From Methanosphaerula palustris E1-9c (GTDB taxonomy: Archaea > Halobacteriota > Methanomicrobia > Methanomicrobiales > Methanospirillaceae): a stretch of DNA of 64,000 nt. Under the pieces are notes generated by a model, which saw only the letters and a list, made by a program, of their open reading frames with translations, did not search any database and was not told the DNA's origin. The stretch covers positions 2,211,242 to 2,275,241 of the forward strand of contig NC_011832.1 in NCBI RefSeq assembly GCF_000021965.1, in the 5' to 3' direction. Positions 18,888-34,356 of this stretch are shown here, one piece after another; the first letter of the stretch is position 1; each line of letters starts with the position of its first letter. Position numbers and translations under genes: made by a program.

Positions 18888-19868
18888 ATGGATGCTGATG
18901 ATCATACCATATGGATCGAACGATACAGACCCACCCGTCTGGCAGATATCGTCGGTCAGGATGAGATCACCGAACGGTTGATCTCCTATGTGAAGGGGCG
19001 GTCTCTGCCCCACCTCCTCTTCACCGGATCTGCAGGTATCGGGAAGACCACGGCCGCCGTGGCCCTCGCCAGAGAGTTCTTCGGTGAGGCCTGGCATATC
19101 AACTTCCGGGAGATGAACGCCTCGGACGAGCGCGGGATCGATGTGGTCAGAAACCAGATCAAACAGTTCGCCAGGACCTCCCCCCTCGAAGGGGCCGAGT
19201 TCAAGATCCTCTTCCTGGACGAGGCCGATGCGCTGACCACCGACGCTCAGGCCGCGCTCCGGCGAACGATGGAGACCTACTCCCGCGGGTGCAGGTTCAT
19301 TCTCTCGTGCAACTACTCCTCCAAGATCATCGATCCGATACAGAGCAGGTGCGCGATCTACCGGTTCCGACCCCTGACACCGGAGGCGATCAGCGAAGAG
19401 ATCGGTAAGATCGCAGGAAAGGAGGGTATCACCGTCACCCCCGATGCGATCGAAGCGATCGTATACATCGCACAGGGAGACATGCGGAAGGCGATCAATG
19501 CGCTGCAGGGGGCTTCGATCGTCTCAAAGTCGATCGACCAGGAGATGGTCTATGCGATCACCTCCAGCGCACGCCCGGATGAGATCGAGGAACTCCTCGG
19601 CCTGATCCTGGTGGGAGATTTTGAAGGGGCTGAAGCAGTCCTGCTCGCCCTGATGCACACCCGCGGGATCGCGCCGGCCGAACTGCTCGGGCAGGTCTAC
19701 CGGGCCCTGAGCGGAAGGAGCATGGAGCGGGAGTTGAAGGTGGCCCTGATCGGTCACCTCGGTGAGACCGACTTCCGGCTGAGTGAAGGGGCTTCGCCCG
19801 ACCTGCAGATGGAGGCGCTGCTCGCCCGGTGCGTGGAGAGCGTTATCGCCCAGCAGGAGAACAACTGA
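18888..19868 (+). CDS. rfcS: Replication factor C small subunit
   Basis: RfcS is the small subunit of the archaeal clamp loader that opens PCNA and loads it on primed DNA. The 326-residue protein starts with the family opening IWIERYRP and has Walker [10 protein letters not shown] (47-55), the DEAD Walker B (FLDEADALT), and the SRC box ([10 protein letters not shown]). It has no intein, unlike many archaeal copies. I chose the ATG at 18888, which has GGTGT five bases upstream; the ATG at 18876 is possible and would add four residues. Its stop overlaps the mcm start (ATGA). Confidence 0.96.
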
Positions 19869-22800
19869 TGAGTGGACCCGAGGATGAGTTCGCAGAGATC
19901 AGCGACCGGGTCGCCGAATGGTCACGATTCTTAAAGACCCGGTACAAGAAGGAACTGACAGAACTCCTTCGTGAGTACCCGCACAAACGATCCCTGGTGA
20001 TCGACTATCACCAGGTCGAGTCCTTTGGAAAGCCGGGTCTCCGGATGGCCGATGAGATCCTTGAGAACCCCGGCAAGGTGATCGAGGACCTCCGGGACGC
20101 CATCAAGACCCAGCACGTGGTCAAGACCAGGAAGAACGAGCAGATCCCCAGGGAGATCAACCTCCGGTTCATCAATCTGCCGCAAAAGATCTGCGCCCGG
20201 GACATTCGGTCCGAACAGATCAACAAGATGCTCAGTGTCGAGGGGATCCTCAGAAAGACCACCGAGGTGCGTCCCCGGATCGTGGAGGCGATCTTCCGCT
20301 GCCCTGCCGGCCATATGACCAGACGGATGCAGGAGTACGGGCGGTTCATCGAGCCTGAGCAGTGCGGGACCGAGGGGTGCACCTTCCGGAAGCTGCAGCT
20401 GATGGCCAAACGCTCCCGGTTCATCGATGCCCAGAAGGTCAGGATCCAGGAGTCCCCGGAAGGGCTCCGCGGGGGGCAGCAGCCCCAGACTCTCGACGTC
20501 GACGTCACCGACGACATCACCGGGACCGTCGCCCCCGGCGACCGGGTGGTGATCAATGGGATCCTTCGCTCCCAGCAGCGGGTCACCTACGGGACGAAGA
20601 GCACCACCTTCGATATCTATCTGGAGTGCAACTCGATCGAGGTGGCCGAGAAGGAGTTCGAGGAGGTGAACATCACCGAGAAGGACGAGGAGGAGATCAT
20701 CCGCCTCTCCACAGACCCGACCATCTATCGGAAGATCGTCCACTCGATCGCCCCGACGATCTATGGGAATGAGGATGTGAAGGAGGCGATCGCACTGCAG
20801 CTCTTCGGCGGGATCACCAAGGAGATGCCCGATGGGAGCCGGCTGCGTGGAGATATCCATGTGCTCCTGATCGGAGATCCAGGTATAGCAAAGAGTCAGA
20901 TCCTCCGGTATGTCGTGAACCTCTCACCGCGAGGGATCTACACCAGCGGTCAGTCCTCGACCTCTGCCGGGCTGACGGCCACCGCCGTCAAGGACGAGTT
21001 TGGTGACGGCAGGTGGACCCTCGAGGCCGGTGCGCTGGTCCTCGCCGACATGGGGATCGCCGCCGTCGATGAGATGGACAAGATGCAGAAGGAGGACCGG
21101 TCGGCCCTGCACGAGGCGATGGAGCAGCAGTGTTATGATGACCAAACGGAGATCCTCACGGAAAAGGGTTGGAAATTTTTCAAAGATCTGGGGAAGAATG
21201 AACGGGTAGCATCATTAACCCAGGATGGATTCCTCACGTACGAAATCCCTTCCCAGCATGTCATATCAGATTACGACGGGCAGATGTATTATATCAAGTC
21301 CAGGCAGGTGAACCTCGCGGTAACCCCGAATCATAACATGTATGTGAACCTGAATAAACGGGCAAACGATTGGGAAGGATTCAAACTTATCCGGATGGAC
21401 GAACTGCCGATTAATAAGCGGATGCGGTTTAAAAAGAACGCAAAATGGCAGGGGGATACCGTAGCAACCCATACAGTTCCCGGGATAATCAAATTCGGCA
21501 ATCAGAACTGTAAGGGATATGAGACCGAACCGATCATCGTAAAAATGGATGACTGGCTGGAGTTTCTGGGATATTTCTTATCAGAAGGAAGCGTCCAGAA
21601 ACACTGGGAAACGGGGGTACCGTACCGGGTTAACATATCCCAGAAGATCCCAGAATCCACGGAGATCATAAGAATATGTCTCGAAAAACTGCCGTTTAAC
21701 TATTCTTATGATGGGGCAAATTTCTCAATTAACTCCAAACAGTTAGCCGGGCACCTTGTAGAATTTGGGAAATGCCACGAAAAATACGTACCGGCGTATG
21801 CAAAACAGGTACCCCCCGAACAGATCCAGATACTCCTGAATGCGTTAGTATTGGGGGATGGCTGGACGAGAAAAACAACCAGACAGACGGTATACATCAC
21901 CTCTTCAAAAAGACTGGCAGATGATGTAACAGAGTTACTTCTAAAAATTGGCTGGTCTGGGAATATCTATTGTCAGCATCATGCCGGGGATACGATAAAG
22001 GATCCACGAGGTATAGAGACGAGATACACCCATGGGATCTGGGAAGTGTCTTTTATCCGTGACGGAGTGAATGAGCCAAATATCAATACCAATGGGGAAA
22101 AACACATCCAGATCAAGCCATATTCAGGAAAAATCTACTGCGTGGAAGTTCCCGAGCATCTGCTGTATGTAAGAAGAGACGGGATTCCAGTTTGGTGCGG
22201 AAACACCATCAGTGTGGCCAAAGCCGGGATCACCGCGACCTTAAAGACCCGGTGTGCCCTGCTCGGAGCGGCCAACCCCAAGCTCGGCCGGTTCGATGAG
22301 TATGCCGATATCGGAGAGCAGATCAACATGCCCCCTTCGCTCCTCTCCCGGTTCGACCTGATCTTCATCCTGACCGACAAGCCGGATCACAAACGGGACG
22401 AGGCGATCGCCGACTTCATCATCAGGTCACACGGGGTGGGCGAACTGATCGCCCAGCACAGCCGGGATCCAATCGAGGGCGTGACCGACGAGTACATCAC
22501 CCAGCAACTCGCCCCGGTCACCCCGGACATCGACGCCGGCATGCTGCGGAAGTACATCGCCTATGCAAAGCGGACCTGTTTCCCGATCCTCAGCACTGAA
22601 GCGAAGGAGACCCTGATCGCCTACTACATGAAACTCCGTGACCTGGCCGACTCCAACAAGCCGGTCCCGGTGACGGCACGGCAGCTCGAGGCACTGGTCA
22701 GGCTGGCCGAGGCCAGCGCACGGGTCAGGCTGAGCAAGTCTATCGAGAACTCAGATGCCGAACGGGTCGTGAAGATCGTCGACACCTGTCTGCGGCAGGT

Positions 22801-23062
22801 GGCCTACGATGCCAAGACCGGCACCTTCGATATCGACAAGGTCGCGACCGGGATCTCCAAGGGGAAGCGGGACATGATCCGGATGATCAAGGATGTGATC
22901 CGGGAGAACGGCGATGTCAGTGGTAGAGCCCAGATCCAGCAGGTGATCGACCTCGTCGCCCAGCAGGGGTTCGGCAAGGACGAAGTGAAGAAACAGATCG
23001 ATGCCTTCCTCCGGAGTGGCGAAGCGATGGAGCCCAAGAACGGGGTCATCAAACTGATCTGA
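19868..23062 (+). CDS. mcm: MCM replicative helicase with an intein
   Basis: The archaeal MCM helicase unwinds DNA at the fork as a homohexamer. The ORF of 1064 residues includes a 358-residue intein, leaving a 706-residue MCM. Visible parts are the N-terminal DNA-binding domain with a zinc motif (CPAGHMTRRM ... CGTEGC), Walker A GDPGIAKSQ near 335-343, Walker B (ADMGIAAVDEMDK), the sensor/arginine finger regions after the intein (LLSRFDLIFILTD), and a C-terminal winged helix. The start overlaps rfcS by four bases, so expression of clamp loader and helicase is coupled. The intein interrupts the highly conserved segment just after Walker B. Confidence 0.97.
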   Translation: MSGPEDEFAEISDRVAEWSRFLKTRYKKELTELLREYPHKRSLVIDYHQVESFGKPGLRMADEILENPGKVIEDLRDAIKTQHVVKTRKNEQIPREINLRFINLPQKICARDIRSEQINKMLSVEGILRKTTEVRPRIVEAIFRCPAGHMTRRMQEYGRFIEPEQCGTEGCTFRKLQLMAKRSRFIDAQKVRIQESPEGLRGGQQPQTLDVDVTDDITGTVAPGDRVVINGILRSQQRVTYGTKSTTFDIYLECNSIEVAEKEFEEVNITEKDEEEIIRLSTDPTIYRKIVHSIAPTIYGNEDVKEAIALQLFGGITKEMPDGSRLRGDIHVLLIGDPGIAKSQILRYVVNLSPRGIYTSGQSSTSAGLTATAVKDEFGDGRWTLEAGALVLADMGIAAVDEMDKMQKEDRSALHEAMEQQCYDDQTEILTEKGWKFFKDLGKNERVASLTQDGFLTYEIPSQHVISDYDGQMYYIKSRQVNLAVTPNHNMYVNLNKRANDWEGFKLIRMDELPINKRMRFKKNAKWQGDTVATHTVPGIIKFGNQNCKGYETEPIIVKMDDWLEFLGYFLSEGSVQKHWETGVPYRVNISQKIPESTEIIRICLEKLPFNYSYDGANFSINSKQLAGHLVEFGKCHEKYVPAYAKQVPPEQIQILLNALVLGDGWTRKTTRQTVYITSSKRLADDVTELLLKIGWSGNIYCQHHAGDTIKDPRGIETRYTHGIWEVSFIRDGVNEPNINTNGEKHIQIKPYSGKIYCVEVPEHLLYVRRDGIPVWCGNTISVAKAGITATLKTRCALLGAANPKLGRFDEYADIGEQINMPPSLLSRFDLIFILTDKPDHKRDEAIADFIIRSHGVGELIAQHSRDPIEGVTDEYITQQLAPVTPDIDAGMLRKYIAYAKRTCFPILSTEAKETLIAYYMKLRDLADSNKPVPVTARQLEALVRLAEASARVRLSKSIENSDAERVVKIVDTCLRQVAYDAKTGTFDIDKVATGISKGKRDMIRMIKDVIRENGDVSGRAQIQQVIDLVAQQGFGKDEVKKQIDAFLRSGEAMEPKNGVIKLI
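21131..22204 (+). mobile_element. Intein with LAGLIDADG homing endonuclease in MCM
   Basis: In-frame insertion between HEAMEQQ and TISVAKAG of MCM. The intein starts with Cys (CYDDQTEILTEKGWKFF, block A) and carries the block B TPNHNMYV. It holds two LAGLIDADG-type motifs (LGYFLSEGSVQ and LNALVLGDGWTRK) and ends with block F/G HLLYVRRDGIPVWCGN before Thr+1. The penultimate residue is Gly rather than the usual His. Codons are visibly richer in A/T than in the flanking MCM. It is 358 residues, so the endonuclease domain appears whole. Splicing residues Cys1, Asn358 and Thr+1 are intact. Confidence 0.96.
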
Positions 23063-24452: not shown

Positions 24453-26327
24453 TCAGACGATCCGAAACTTCTTATTGGCTGCCGTGGATTCCATCGCAAC
24501 TCTGGAGACGTTCTCGATCATCCGGCTGATCTCATCGATCGCAGCGGTCGACTGTTCAGTCGCCGAGGCGGCGTCGGCGGCCTCCTGTTCGGTGCTCTTC
24601 ACCATATTCACCATCTCCTGCACCTGCATCGTGATCTCCTCGACCGTGGCTGCCTGCTCTTCTGAAGCCCCCGCCACCTCCTCGGTATTCGCTGCGATCT
24701 TCTCGATAGCCTGCACAATCCGATTGAAGGAGACGAGGGTCTCTCCGATCACCTTCGTCCCGTCTGCGACGGTCTTTCCGGCCTCGCCCATTGCGACCGT
24801 CGCCTGACTGGACAGTTTTCGAAGCCCGTCGATCATCTCTTCGATACTCTCTGCTGAGTGCTTGGACTCAAGGGCAAGCGACTTCACCTCGGCAGCAACC
24901 ACGGCAAAGCCGCGACCGGCTTCCCCTGCCCGGGCCGCTTCGATCGCCGCGTTCAATGCAAGCAGGTTGGTCTGGGTGGCGAGATCCCGGATCAGTCCGA
25001 CGATCTTTCCAATCTCATTCATCTGTCCGTCAATCCGGGAAACCAGGTGAATAGACTCGTCTGATGAGGTCTTGATCCCACCCATACTCTCTTCCGCACT
25101 CGATGCAAGGCGTGCCCCCTCCTTGGAGAGGGTGTTGGTCTCCTTGGCAAGGATCGAGACCGACTCGATGCTGGAGGTAGCCTCCTCAACAGCCGCGGAC
25201 ATATCCTCCATCCCCTTGAGGACCACGATCATGCTGGAACTGACCCGCTCAGTATTCTCGCTGACGTGAGAGACAGAGAGGGCCACCTGCTGGGAACCGC
25301 CTGCCACCTGTTCAGCCCCAGCATTCGCCTCCTCCGCTGAGGCCGCCAGCTCATCCATAGCCTGGGTGACTGCTGCGACCATCCCCTTGATCGCTGCGAC
25401 CGCTGCGTTCAGATCCTGTTTGACCTGGCCCAGCGGATCGCCAGCCCTGACTATCACCTCACAGGTCAGATCCCCTGCTGCAAGCCCAGCCAGCCCAGCC
25501 GCCAGTTCGCCTGCACTAGCCTTGAGGAGTTCATCATCAGAACGCTTCCTGGTGACATCGTTGTAGACACTGAAGATGTCGGTTACCGTTCCATCCAGGT
25601 CAAAGAGCGGGGTGTTGTAGGCTTCAAGGGTGAAGATGCCGTTTGGGTACTCGATAATGAGATCGCCACGGGTGTTCTTCTTCTCCCGCACCAGGGTCCG
25701 GAGTCCCTCACCTGAACTGGACAGGATCTTCAGGTCCTGGGCCTTCATCCGCATCGCTGCCATGGCGTCATACCCGGACAGGGCAAGAAACGCTCTATTC
25801 ACCTGGCGAACCTGCATCTCTGCATCCCAGACGATGATTGGAAATGGATTCTCCTGGATCATGGCATCAGCACGCTTTCGAGCCACCATCGCCTCGTCAA
25901 CAAGCCGTCTGCGTGTCGTGATGTCATGAAGATAGACATGCAACAGGGGGGTTCCTGCATCCATGACCTGCGTGAGGGTCACCTCGGCATCGACGATGCT
26001 GCGGTCCTGCCGGCGGAGCAACCACTCAAAGGTCTGAGGGGTTCCCTTTGCTGCAGCAGCCACATACGCGGCGAGCCGTTCCTCTGCCCGGACCCCATCA
26101 GCCTGCCGCTCTGCAGAGAGCATGATAAGGGGAGATCCTCTGAGTTCACTTCCGGATGAATATCCAAGCAGGGTTAAAGCCCCGGCGTTCAGGTCGACGC
26201 AGTGCCCGTTCTCGAAGAGGAGAATCCCGGCAGGGGCCGCATCGAGCAACAACCGCCTCCGCCGCAGTTCCTGTTCATCCCCTACCCCTGCCGTACCTGT
26301 TACCGATTCTCTCATCACCACGTCCAA
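24453..26327 (-). CDS. Cytoplasmic methyl-accepting chemotaxis protein with two PAS domains
   Basis: A 624-residue chemoreceptor with no membrane segment. An N-terminal PAS domain (about 25-135) is followed by a second PAS domain (about 150-265, ending with VYNDVTRKR), a HAMP-like linker, and a full MCP signalling domain from about 330. The hairpin tip [20 protein letters not shown] ends the conserved CheW/CheA contact region. There is no CheR-tethering pentapeptide at the C-terminus. It should sense an internal redox, light or metabolic signal through PAS. No che or archaellum genes are in the window. The ATG at 26327 or the one four codons later may be used. Confidence 0.9.
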
Positions 26328-32061: not shown

Positions 32062-34356
32062 TCAGGTCTCCCAGTGCAGCACGTTCCGCACCACAGACCA
32101 GCGTGGCTCGGTCAATCCGGCATCCTTCCCCAGGATCCAGTAATTGTACTTTTCGTTCAGGTTCCCGTAGTCCTTCTCCATCTTGAGCCAGTAATTGAGC
32201 GACATCAGATAGGTATCACTACTATTCTGGGCCACAGCATACCCATACATCATCTGGTACGAGTCGTTAGGCTCGATGATGGCCACGTCGTAGAACGGGT
32301 ACTGCATGGTCATCGTATACCCCTCCTCAGCCGTGGTGATGAGGGCATCCGCCTTCTTCTCCACGAAGAACTCCTCCTCTGAGTCGATTGGAACGATCGT
32401 CGCTCCAGGAAGCATCTGTGCAGCCACCTTCACCAGCGCCGTGTTGTTGAAGACCGCGACCCGGAGACCCTTCATCTTCTTCACGTTCTCCAACTTCGAA
32501 AACTCCGCCTTTTGTTCGTCAGGCACCACGAACGACATGTGAACAGTGACGTACGAGTCGGTGAACTTCATCTCATCAAGCCTCTCCGGTGTGACTGCAA
32601 CCGAGGACATGACGATGTCGCAGTAGCCGCTGTTGAGGGAATCAGCGAGGGTCGCCCCAGTGATAGGGACGAACTCGACCCTGGTGACATTGACGAACCG
32701 GGCCAGATCATAGGCCATCTGTACATCATATCCCACCAGATCACCCTTTCCGTTGAAGAAGACAAAGGGGATATTATTGCTGTTATACCCCACCCGAAGC
32801 ACACCCCGCTCCCGGATCTGTTTGACATCCTCCCCTCCTCCACCCAAGTCATAGGGACCGAGGGGCGGAACATCCTCAACACGCGAATAGACTGTAGTAT
32901 TTATACCCACATCCACCCTCGCCCCATTCAAATCGAGAGGAAGATCCATCTGAGAGATCTGATCGTTCCCATGATAGGTGTTGGCCAGCAACAAAGCGAA
33001 ACCCATCTTCAGACCTCCAATCATGATAAAGGTCAGCAAGAGAATGAGCACGACTGATGGGATCATCCTTCGCCACCGCATCCGGCCCCGGTTCGTGATG
33101 AGGGCGATGCTGATGGTGGAGAACGAGAAGATCGACATACAGGAGAGGGCAGCCACAAAGCACTGACGCAAGATCCCCATGCTGATATACAGGTTGTACG
33201 CGTCTGCAGGGAGGTGCATCAGATTCAGAAGCGATACCACCGAGAGTTTGGATGAACCGAAGAAGGTGGGAATCCCCACGGCAATGAGTTGCACCTGCTG
33301 CATTAGATCCGACGGGCTCTGATAAAGCCAGGCCACGAAGAGGATGAAGAGAAAGGGGGTGATCCCGCCCAGCAGCGGAAAGGTATAAGCCACCGGTACC
33401 AGGATCTCGCTGTACGACCGGACGTCCCTCCAGTCAGGGGCCTGTTCCTGCATCTCCCCAGTCCAGTCCTCTTGGGGAAGGTCATCAGGCCGGTCCGCAT
33501 TCCCACCCGCACCGCTGCTTACAGGAATCCCCGACGGCCCCTCGAAGAGTTTCCTGACACCTTCGATGATCAGCGGCAGGGTGATGAACTCACTGCCGGT
33601 CGAGAATGCAAGAACCACAGCTCTGGACGAGGCGGCGAGGATGTCCCGATAGCGGAAGGTGGTGAAACAGGTGATCAGCAGGGGCAGGACAACGAGGCCG
33701 AGCAGGACAGTGGCCGCGGCAAGGGAGACCAGGTAGACCTGAAGATCCAGAAAACCCTCAAAGGTCATGGTTCCTGCCGTGCTGGCGGTGATGACGAAGA
33801 CACCGATGGGAAAGGTCCGGGACAGGATGCTCGTCATGCGTGTGAGCGCGCCCAGCAGGATCCTGAGCGAACTCAGGATAGGTCCGCTCCCATCATCCAT
33901 CATCAGGGCGAAGCCCAGGAACAGGCAGAAGAGCACAGTGGCCGGGATTATCCCCTCTGACAATGACTGGAAGGGGTTGGAGGGTATGAACTGGTCGATG
34001 ATGTTGAAACCGACCGTCTCGGTCAGGTCCTGTGCGCTGAAGAATGAGGCAGCCTCCCGAGGAGGGAACGCCCATTGAAATGAAAAAAATATCCCGACAC
34101 CGATAGCCCAGAACAGGAGCAGGACCAATCCCGCTTTCACGGCGATCGCCCGTGCACTGTCCCTCTTCAGGCTCCCGATTCCGACGATAAGGGAGAGCAC
34201 CACGGAAGGGAGGATGGTGATCTGCCAGATCTTGATGAATGCATCGCTGAATGGTTTCAGAACCGAGCAGAGATCCCCAAAGAACAGACCAGCGAGCGCT
34301 CCGAGGATAAAACCCAGCAATATCCAGATGGTCAGGTTCAGGCTGCGCAATCTCAT
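32062..34356 (-). CDS. SDF/DAACS symporter fused to a family-3 solute-binding domain
   Basis: A 764-residue fusion. Residues 1 to about 445 form a sodium/proton dicarboxylate or amino-acid symporter of the DAACS family, with the helices, the serine-rich AFSTGSEFITLPLI motif where the family has SSSATLP, and a hydrophilic insertion at about 270-320 (VSSGAGGNADRPDDLPQ). A further membrane helix (about 435-460) leads into an extracytoplasmic linker. Residues 509 to about 745 are a periplasmic-type family-3 solute-binding domain (RGVLRVGYNSNNIPF, GYCDIVMSSVAVTPER). Both domains suggest amino acids or dicarboxylates as substrate. No ABC partner genes are nearby. The start is the only in-frame ATG before the first helix, and no strong ribosome site is visible. 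Confidence 0.85.
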   Translation of the reverse strand: MRLRSLNLTIWILLGFILGALAGLFFGDLCSVLKPFSDAFIKIWQITILPSVVLSLIVGIGSLKRDSARAIAVKAGLVLLLFWAIGVGIFFSFQWAFPPREAASFFSAQDLTETVGFNIIDQFIPSNPFQSLSEGIIPATVLFCLFLGFALMMDDGSGPILSSLRILLGALTRMTSILSRTFPIGVFVITASTAGTMTFEGFLDLQVYLVSLAAATVLLGLVVLPLLITCFTTFRYRDILAASSRAVVLAFSTGSEFITLPLIIEGVRKLFEGPSGIPVSSGAGGNADRPDDLPQEDWTGEMQEQAPDWRDVRSYSEILVPVAYTFPLLGGITPFLFILFVAWLYQSPSDLMQQVQLIAVGIPTFFGSSKLSVVSLLNLMHLPADAYNLYISMGILRQCFVAALSCMSIFSFSTISIALITNRGRMRWRRMIPSVVLILLLTFIMIGGLKMGFALLLANTYHGNDQISQMDLPLDLNGARVDVGINTTVYSRVEDVPPLGPYDLGGGGEDVKQIRERGVLRVGYNSNNIPFVFFNGKGDLVGYDVQMAYDLARFVNVTRVEFVPITGATLADSLNSGYCDIVMSSVAVTPERLDEMKFTDSYVTVHMSFVVPDEQKAEFSKLENVKKMKGLRVAVFNNTALVKVAAQMLPGATIVPIDSEEEFFVEKKADALITTAEEGYTMTMQYPFYDVAIIEPNDSYQMMYGYAVAQNSSDTYLMSLNYWLKMEKDYGNLNEKYNYWILGKDAGLTEPRWSVVRNVLHWET

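Follow-up and report, generated by a model that had tools for sequence, protein, structure and literature searches.

What does a protein do that carries, in one polypeptide, a glutamate-transporter-type membrane domain (SDF) and a family-3 solute-binding domain (SBP)? A gene of this kind is present in Methanosphaerula palustris E1-9c, within a 64,000-nucleotide stretch of contig NC_011832.1 that we analyzed as a whole (hereafter the window). A preliminary description, made from the window's DNA, had regarded the product as a sodium or proton symporter served by its own tethered receptor. The gene reads from ATG to stop as 764 uninterrupted codons; the coordinates in that description were correct, the strand, on which it was silent, is minus, and no stop lies between the two domains. 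In a Pfam scan of the 764-residue chain, SDF (180.6 bits, cut-off 27.9) and SBP_bac_3 (72 bits, cut-off 26.4) scored above cut-off, and no further family did. The border between the domains had been placed near residue 509, and in the AlphaFold2 model the SBP elements begin at residue 510. The additional helix noted ahead of the SBP was also predicted, with block means of approximately 70–90 pLDDT. An assembly artefact in the window was considered and rejected: the frame is open and a second genome has a full-length homolog with 70% identity. Coordinates of all features are given in the table.

Table. Features of the SDF-SBP fusion gene, with positions counted from the first nucleotide of the window
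Feature	Position	Strand	Evidence
Whole fusion gene, 764 aa	32062..34356	(-)	ATG at 34356, stop 32064-32062
SDF (glutamate-transporter fold) domain, residues 8-415	33112..34335	(-)	Pfam PF00375 E 6.3e-53; VIA-align Z 36.2 to 9bgy
HP1 hairpin region, altered serine motif AFSTGSEFITLP, residues ~252-272	33541..33603	(-)	Model hairpin H236-253/H257-272 and alignments
TM7 motif YTFPLLG, residues ~320-330	33367..33399	(-)	Alignments; TINMDGT in GltPh-type proteins; P327 in 27/27 fusions
HP2 region and P383-x-D385 motif, residues ~365-385	33202..33264	(-)	Canonical HP2 tip minus six residues; D385 invariant
Extra transmembrane helix TM9, residues 428-457	32986..33075	(-)	AlphaFold2 model; positively charged loop precedes
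Family-3 solute-binding domain, residues 520-741	32134..32799	(-)	Pfam PF00497 E 5.3e-20; Foldseek TM (target) 0.89 to 5t0w_A
Conserved C-terminal tail PRWSVVRNVLHW, residues 751-762	32071..32106	(-)	R752-W753-S754 in 26/27; remaining one ends at contig edge

The preliminary description had suggested a search for this domain order in other archaea and bacteria, and the same fusion was found scattered through both. We collected 28 near-complete fusions. One with masked sequence (L058) was left out of the residue counts and later alignments, which therefore include 27 proteins, and another cut by a contig end (L065) was also left out of the trees and the full-length alignment, which include 26. 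Broken copies and fragments (L003, L004, L028, L029, L030, L032, L053, L054, L062 and L063) were kept outside these counts. Both Pfam domains were present in all 26 members of the full-length alignment, including the window's protein (SDF matches at E ≤ 0.001), indicating that the fusion is not a chance event. Members were found in methanogens, Gammaproteobacteria and Auribacterota. A contig scan with two peptide patterns yielded 13 loci, with L033 removed as an SBP-only match; these loci are a biased sample because both patterns were taken from the SDF half.

Within individual taxa the fusion was sparse. It was present as a whole in 3 of 61 genomes of relatives (the window's genome included), one of these three with an in-frame TAA, and a relic was found in another genome. 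With a profile built from ten fusions, the window's phylum gave matches in 7 of 392 genomes and the genus of G401 in 2 of 30, one of the two being broken. The same profile matched in 10 of 369 genomes of the class to which a Pseudoalteromonas locus belongs and in 4 of 44 genomes of the phylum represented by an Auribacterota locus; both of these counts take in the genome of the respective reference locus, and some of their matches are fragments at contig edges. With a profile of 24 fusions, matches were found in 9 of 199 genomes of the window's order, all in one family. The fusion is thus rare and patchy, yet extends across Archaea and Bacteria. Two copies approximately 15 kb apart were observed in Methanothrix sp. 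bin.308 (L024 and L026, with a third copy, L052, in the same genome) and in an archaeal genome, G304 (L038 and L043). Carriage on phages or plasmids was rejected as the main explanation. None of 13 partially matching phage records covered 80% of the query, and the matches listed (five) were all to the SBP half; among 263 matching plasmid records, two covered 80% of the query, one of which was a 0.9 Mb replicon.

The two halves have co-evolved. Distances in the SDF and SBP trees of the 26 fusions were strongly correlated (Mantel r 0.887; none of 5000 permutations was as high, the maximum being 0.44), and 13 of 23 splits were common to both trees, including the one that separates the archaeal fusion group from the rest. 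Such matching trees suggest one old fusion that was inherited as a unit. When 185 genomes of the class containing the bacterial homolog L027 were searched with a profile of this SDF subfamily, all three matches at E ≤ 1e-40 were inside fused ORFs, so that a lone form of this SDF type is absent from that sample. Purifying selection acts on both halves: dN/dS values for SDF and SBP were 0.18 and 0.16 in the pair L002-L038, 0.25 and 0.12 in L023-L039, and 0.25 and 0.35 in L066-L067, while in the fourth pair, L027-L031, dS was at or near saturation.

These values bear on the idea that the gene is decaying or non-functional in the window's genome. Broken copies do occur in relatives (G004, G350, G417, G026 and the genome of L030) and include one TAA, a frame change, two TGA codons, a relic and scattered fragments, so the gene is dispensable and can be lost. 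In G004 (L003, 1498-3759), the frame is broken by a single TAA in the TM8-TM9 loop, between SDF and SBP, and in G350 (L028, 6001-8254) it changes in the SDF-SBP linker, beside short base runs; both breaks may be true splits, decay or assembly errors. The relic in G026 (L004, 1525-1845) is a short ORF in which part of the SBP is fused straight onto the conserved C-terminal tail. However, the window's frame is intact, dN/dS was 0.12–0.35 in three of four pairs of relatives, and the invariant residues are common to Archaea and Bacteria. We consider decay in the window's genome extremely improbable.

The membrane half keeps its fold. The AlphaFold2 model of the window's protein, obtained with an input of 24 fusions, had a mean pLDDT of 76.8 and a pTM of 0.65. 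In VIA-align comparisons, residues 6-421 of this predicted model matched an ancestral aspartate transporter (9bgy; Z 36.2, 363 aligned residues, rmsd 3.1) and GltPh (6uwl; Z 32.0, 363 aligned residues, rmsd 3.5). With the whole model, the best 50 matches were all SDF chains, and the SBP half was judged by Foldseek. In both models, that of the window's protein and that of L027, TM7, HP1 and HP2 retain their helix breaks. By profile and fold, this half is a homolog of the DAACS/SDF family.

A different picture emerged from its residues, which we compared with those of 23 other SDFs (20 separate SDF loci, out of 32 places, and three others). GltPh numbering is used, and we take N310, D312, D394, R397, N401 and D405 to be sodium or substrate sites. 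The equivalent of N310 is Pro in all 27 fusions and Asn in 20 of the 23 comparison proteins. D312 was absent from every fusion; the comparison proteins had Asp in 5 cases and Asn in 16. The register of TM8 is uncertain because the hhalign and HMMER alignments end before it, and the following counts should be read with this limit: D394 was kept in 1 of 27 fusions versus 22 of 23 comparison SDFs, R397 in 1 versus 20, N401 in none versus all 23, and D405 in none versus 21. Two multiple alignments disagree in register, and neither restores the canonical ligands; whatever the register, residues 394-420 of the window's protein contain no Asp, Glu or Asn. At site Na3, where TM3 contributes a Thr/Ser pair, 26 of 27 fusions have Trp as the second residue. 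The serine-rich HP1 motif and the NMDGT-type TM7 motif, presumably hallmarks of DAACS/SDF proteins, were replaced by AFSTGSEFITLP and FPLLGG, respectively. Residues P327, W343, D385, N127, Q45 and T232 were invariant in all 27 fusions.

With the canonical sodium and amino-acid ligands missing, a GltPh-type sodium symporter appears unlikely. The altered serine motif reported in the preliminary description is indeed in the sequence, but the assignment to an ordinary sodium or proton symporter in which that motif alone was changed was not supported, as the canonical ligands are gone family-wide. The corresponding explanation, an ordinary sodium- or proton-coupled DAACS symporter in which the tethered SBP serves to raise affinity, agrees with the strong Pfam match (E 6.3e-53) and the glutamate-transporter fold; what speaks against it is that essentially all fusions have lost sodium sites 1 and 3 as well as the Asp, Arg and Asn of the substrate site, while most separate SDFs keep these ligands, including one encoded in the same gene run as a fusion in G647. 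We therefore regard it as very unlikely. Because its defining residues were tested and found absent, the protein should not be classified among functional DAACS symporters, and a record annotation of one homolog, 'cation:dicarboxylase symporter family transporter', is a label that may mislead for SDF-SBP fusions.

Divergent SDFs were also observed outside the fusions. Genome G056, of the same order, encodes two separate SDFs (L107, 1160-2776, and L108, 1146-2897, both on the minus strand) that diverge at several canonical sites, have an altered TM7 motif, FSRxG, and carry N-terminal extensions of approximately 140–185 residues without a Pfam match. They perhaps represent another divergent SDF type, and loss of canonical residues is thus not unique to the fusions.

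With almost every canonical side chain for sodium and substrate lost, the membrane core of the fusion family might not transport at all. One possibility of this kind is an SBP-gated pore, in which ligand binding to the outer domain would let an anion, or the ligand, pass passively through an SDF trimer that is itself incapable of transport. Apart from the missing ion-coupling and substrate residues, such a pore would be consistent with an HP2 gate tip that is six residues shorter in all 27 fusions, measured against three canonical proteins, and with the small number of polar core residues conserved across the fusions. EAATs also conduct chloride. However, both models keep the regions where helices of the elevator transport domain break, and we know of no ligand-gated channel of such build. 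A pore therefore seems unlikely to us, though worth bearing in mind.

The preliminary description had placed the binding domain outside the cell, and charge distribution supports this. Summed over 28 proteins, the loop between TM8 and the extra helix TM9 contained 81 Lys/Arg versus 4 Asp/Glu, and the linker from TM9 to the SBP contained 119 Lys/Arg versus 202 Asp/Glu. A positively charged TM8-TM9 loop would be cytoplasmic by the positive-inside rule, which puts the SBP on the extracellular side; the charge analysis gave no sign of a cytoplasmic C-terminal domain, which had been named as an observation that would speak against the fused receptor. The model of L027 has the same layout, with its extra helix at residues 399-429. 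The N terminus comprises approximately 7 residues and the C terminus is outside; in Pfam and the model there is no cytoplasmic output domain.

No gene partner was evident at these loci. The window's fusion gene stands alone: an erythromycin-esterase-family gene follows 167 bases downstream on the same strand, a rubrerythrin-like gene lies upstream in divergent orientation, and six neighboring ORFs that were scanned are unrelated to TRAP components. We compared the ORFs surrounding 29 fusion loci, each with all others. Once antisense copies of the fusion itself and hits between closely related genomes were set aside, no conserved neighbor emerged; this gives no sign of an obligate partner and fits a self-contained protein. 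The sole repeat beyond near relatives was HlyD, at three gammaproteobacterial loci, two of which also had a DUF2955 gene (L034, by record annotation, and L098, by Pfam). A link through an operon or partner to aromatic-acid efflux was considered and judged too weak, with HlyD at 3 of 29 loci and DUF2955 at two. G647 is one of the three HlyD loci; the separate canonical SDF encoded there retains the canonical residues. In L098 (1433-9142), a same-strand run consists of genes for a canonical SDF, a PerM-like protein, a small ORF, HlyD, a DUF2955/FUSC-like protein and then the fusion. Elsewhere in the window, a PAS-MCP chemoreceptor is encoded at 24453-26327 (minus strand), and a related ORF occurs near the fusion in L021, both within 6 kb. 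In addition, an MCM helicase gene at 19829-23062 (plus strand) had its P-loop match in two stretches and a LAGLIDADG_3 match at residues 669-719, and looks like a helicase interrupted by an intein.

Topology and neighborhood together bear on a role as a receptor or sensor, in which the SDF half would anchor the protein or itself sense, and the SBP would report an extracellular ligand to another protein. Family-3 domains act as sensors in other proteins, the histidine kinase EvgS being among the solved matches of the SBP half, and the chemoreceptor genes of the window and L021 are less than 6 kb from the fusion. On the other hand, the protein has no cytoplasmic domain that could relay a signal, given its short N terminus and external C terminus, the 29 loci have no conserved kinase or receptor neighbor, and an elevator fold would be an unlikely choice for a mere anchor. 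We consider this role quite improbable.

The SBP half has both the two-lobe family-3 fold and the Pfam profile. Its closest folds were ancestors of cyclohexadienyl dehydratase (CDT): in Foldseek, the predicted model matched AncCDT-1 (5t0w_A) with a TM (target) of 0.89, rmsd 2.3 and 29% identity. SBPs of GlnP were among the sequence matches. R592 occupies the position that we take to bind the α-carboxylate in amino-acid binders, and an equivalent Arg was present in 21 of 27 fusions. At the position of the Asp that presumably binds the α-amino group (a criterion for amino-acid binders, not for the whole family), the window's protein has T675 and the others have Thr, Ser, Pro or further residues; Asp was found in none of the 27. 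Two residues beyond, a family-specific Glu, E677, was present in 26 of 27. A catalytic SBP of the CDT type was rejected, because the catalytic Glu, by our alignment, falls on the variable E678 (Glu in 13 of 27) and not on the conserved E677. Because the carboxylate Arg is usually kept and the amino-group Asp is not, we expect the ligand to be an organic acid or an amino-acid-like compound.

Our preferred reading, to which we give about even chances, is an elevator transporter in a single chain that depends on its own binding domain and takes up a small solute, either an organic acid or an amino-acid-like compound. The extracellular SBP_bac_3-type domain would capture the solute and, tethered via TM9 to the SDF-fold domain, would pass it to the outward-facing transport domain, whose elevator movement would bring it inside. 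As the membrane half is devoid of canonical sodium and amino-acid ligands, specificity probably now lies with the SBP. Any energy coupling would be non-canonical, with the invariant D385 as a candidate site for protons; alternatively, the protein might be a facilitated uniporter. In favor of a single-chain transporter are the presence of both domains in all aligned members, the concordant trees, the kept helix breaks, the outside location of the SBP and the lack of a conserved partner. Function as an SBP-dependent carrier is a claim separate from DAACS homology, and we infer it from this combination of features, together with import as the direction of transport, hand-over from the SBP and a trimeric assembly.

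An account of an SDF-SBP fusion was not found in the open-access literature, and the fusion may represent an unrecognised class of binding-protein-dependent transporter. More specifically, and rather tentatively, it could add another class to the secondary transporters that depend on a binding protein (TRAP, TTT and TAXI-GltS), and the first to be based on the SLC1/SDF fold; specificity would then reside wholly in the tethered SBP, and the elevator would work without the canonical sodium mechanism, with a different coupling. The TAXI-GltS report states that TRAP and TTT were previously the only secondary transporter families known with a soluble SBP, and its authors suspect that some feature of the elevator mechanism permits the use of SBPs, an idea that further classes would test (PMC12344293). 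If an SDF-fold member proves true, it would offer such a test, with well-studied mechanics and the SBP in one chain. The fusion is also a natural experiment on what becomes of the glutamate-transporter fold after its sodium and amino-acid sites are lost.

Several known systems share one half or one principle with the fusion. GltPh, GltTk and AncInt (DAACS/SDF, TC 2.A.23) have the same membrane fold; in contrast to them, the fusion has no NMDGT motif, has a shortened HP2 tip, has lost the TM8 ligands and has gained TM9 and the SBP. The SBP half resembles family-3 SBPs, AncCDT-1 and cyclohexadienyl dehydratase in fold, and differs in that the amino-group Asp is replaced and E677 is family-specific. 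Some ABC importers, such as GlnP and OpuA, have SBPs covalently tethered to the membrane part, as the fusion does; however, no ABC permease or ATPase domain was found in its chain by Pfam. Closer in the proposed role are TRAP transporters (e.g., SiaPQM), in which an SBP feeds an elevator-type secondary carrier, and the comparison with a one-chain TRAP system drawn in the preliminary description is fair as an idea, although the chain contains neither the Q and M membrane proteins nor the DctP/TAXI-type SBP that TRAP systems have. TRAP, TTT and TAXI-GltS are all functional parallels, and none has the SDF fold. Among them, TAXI-GltS is nearest. In that system, a secondary carrier of presumed elevator type cooperates with an SBP, to which it is fused in Lachnospiraceae; the carrier belongs to the ESS family (TC 2.A.27, sodium/glutamate symporter family), the SBP is of TAXI type, and it is N-terminal (PMC12344293). 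The fusion differs in having an SDF fold, a family-3 SBP that is C-terminal behind an added helix, and a core that has lost its canonical ligands, and neither the TAXI SBP nor the GltS profile of Pfam matched its chain. By analogy with TAXI-GltS, an SBP linked or fused to an elevator symporter is a plausible arrangement for the SDF-SBP fusion as well.
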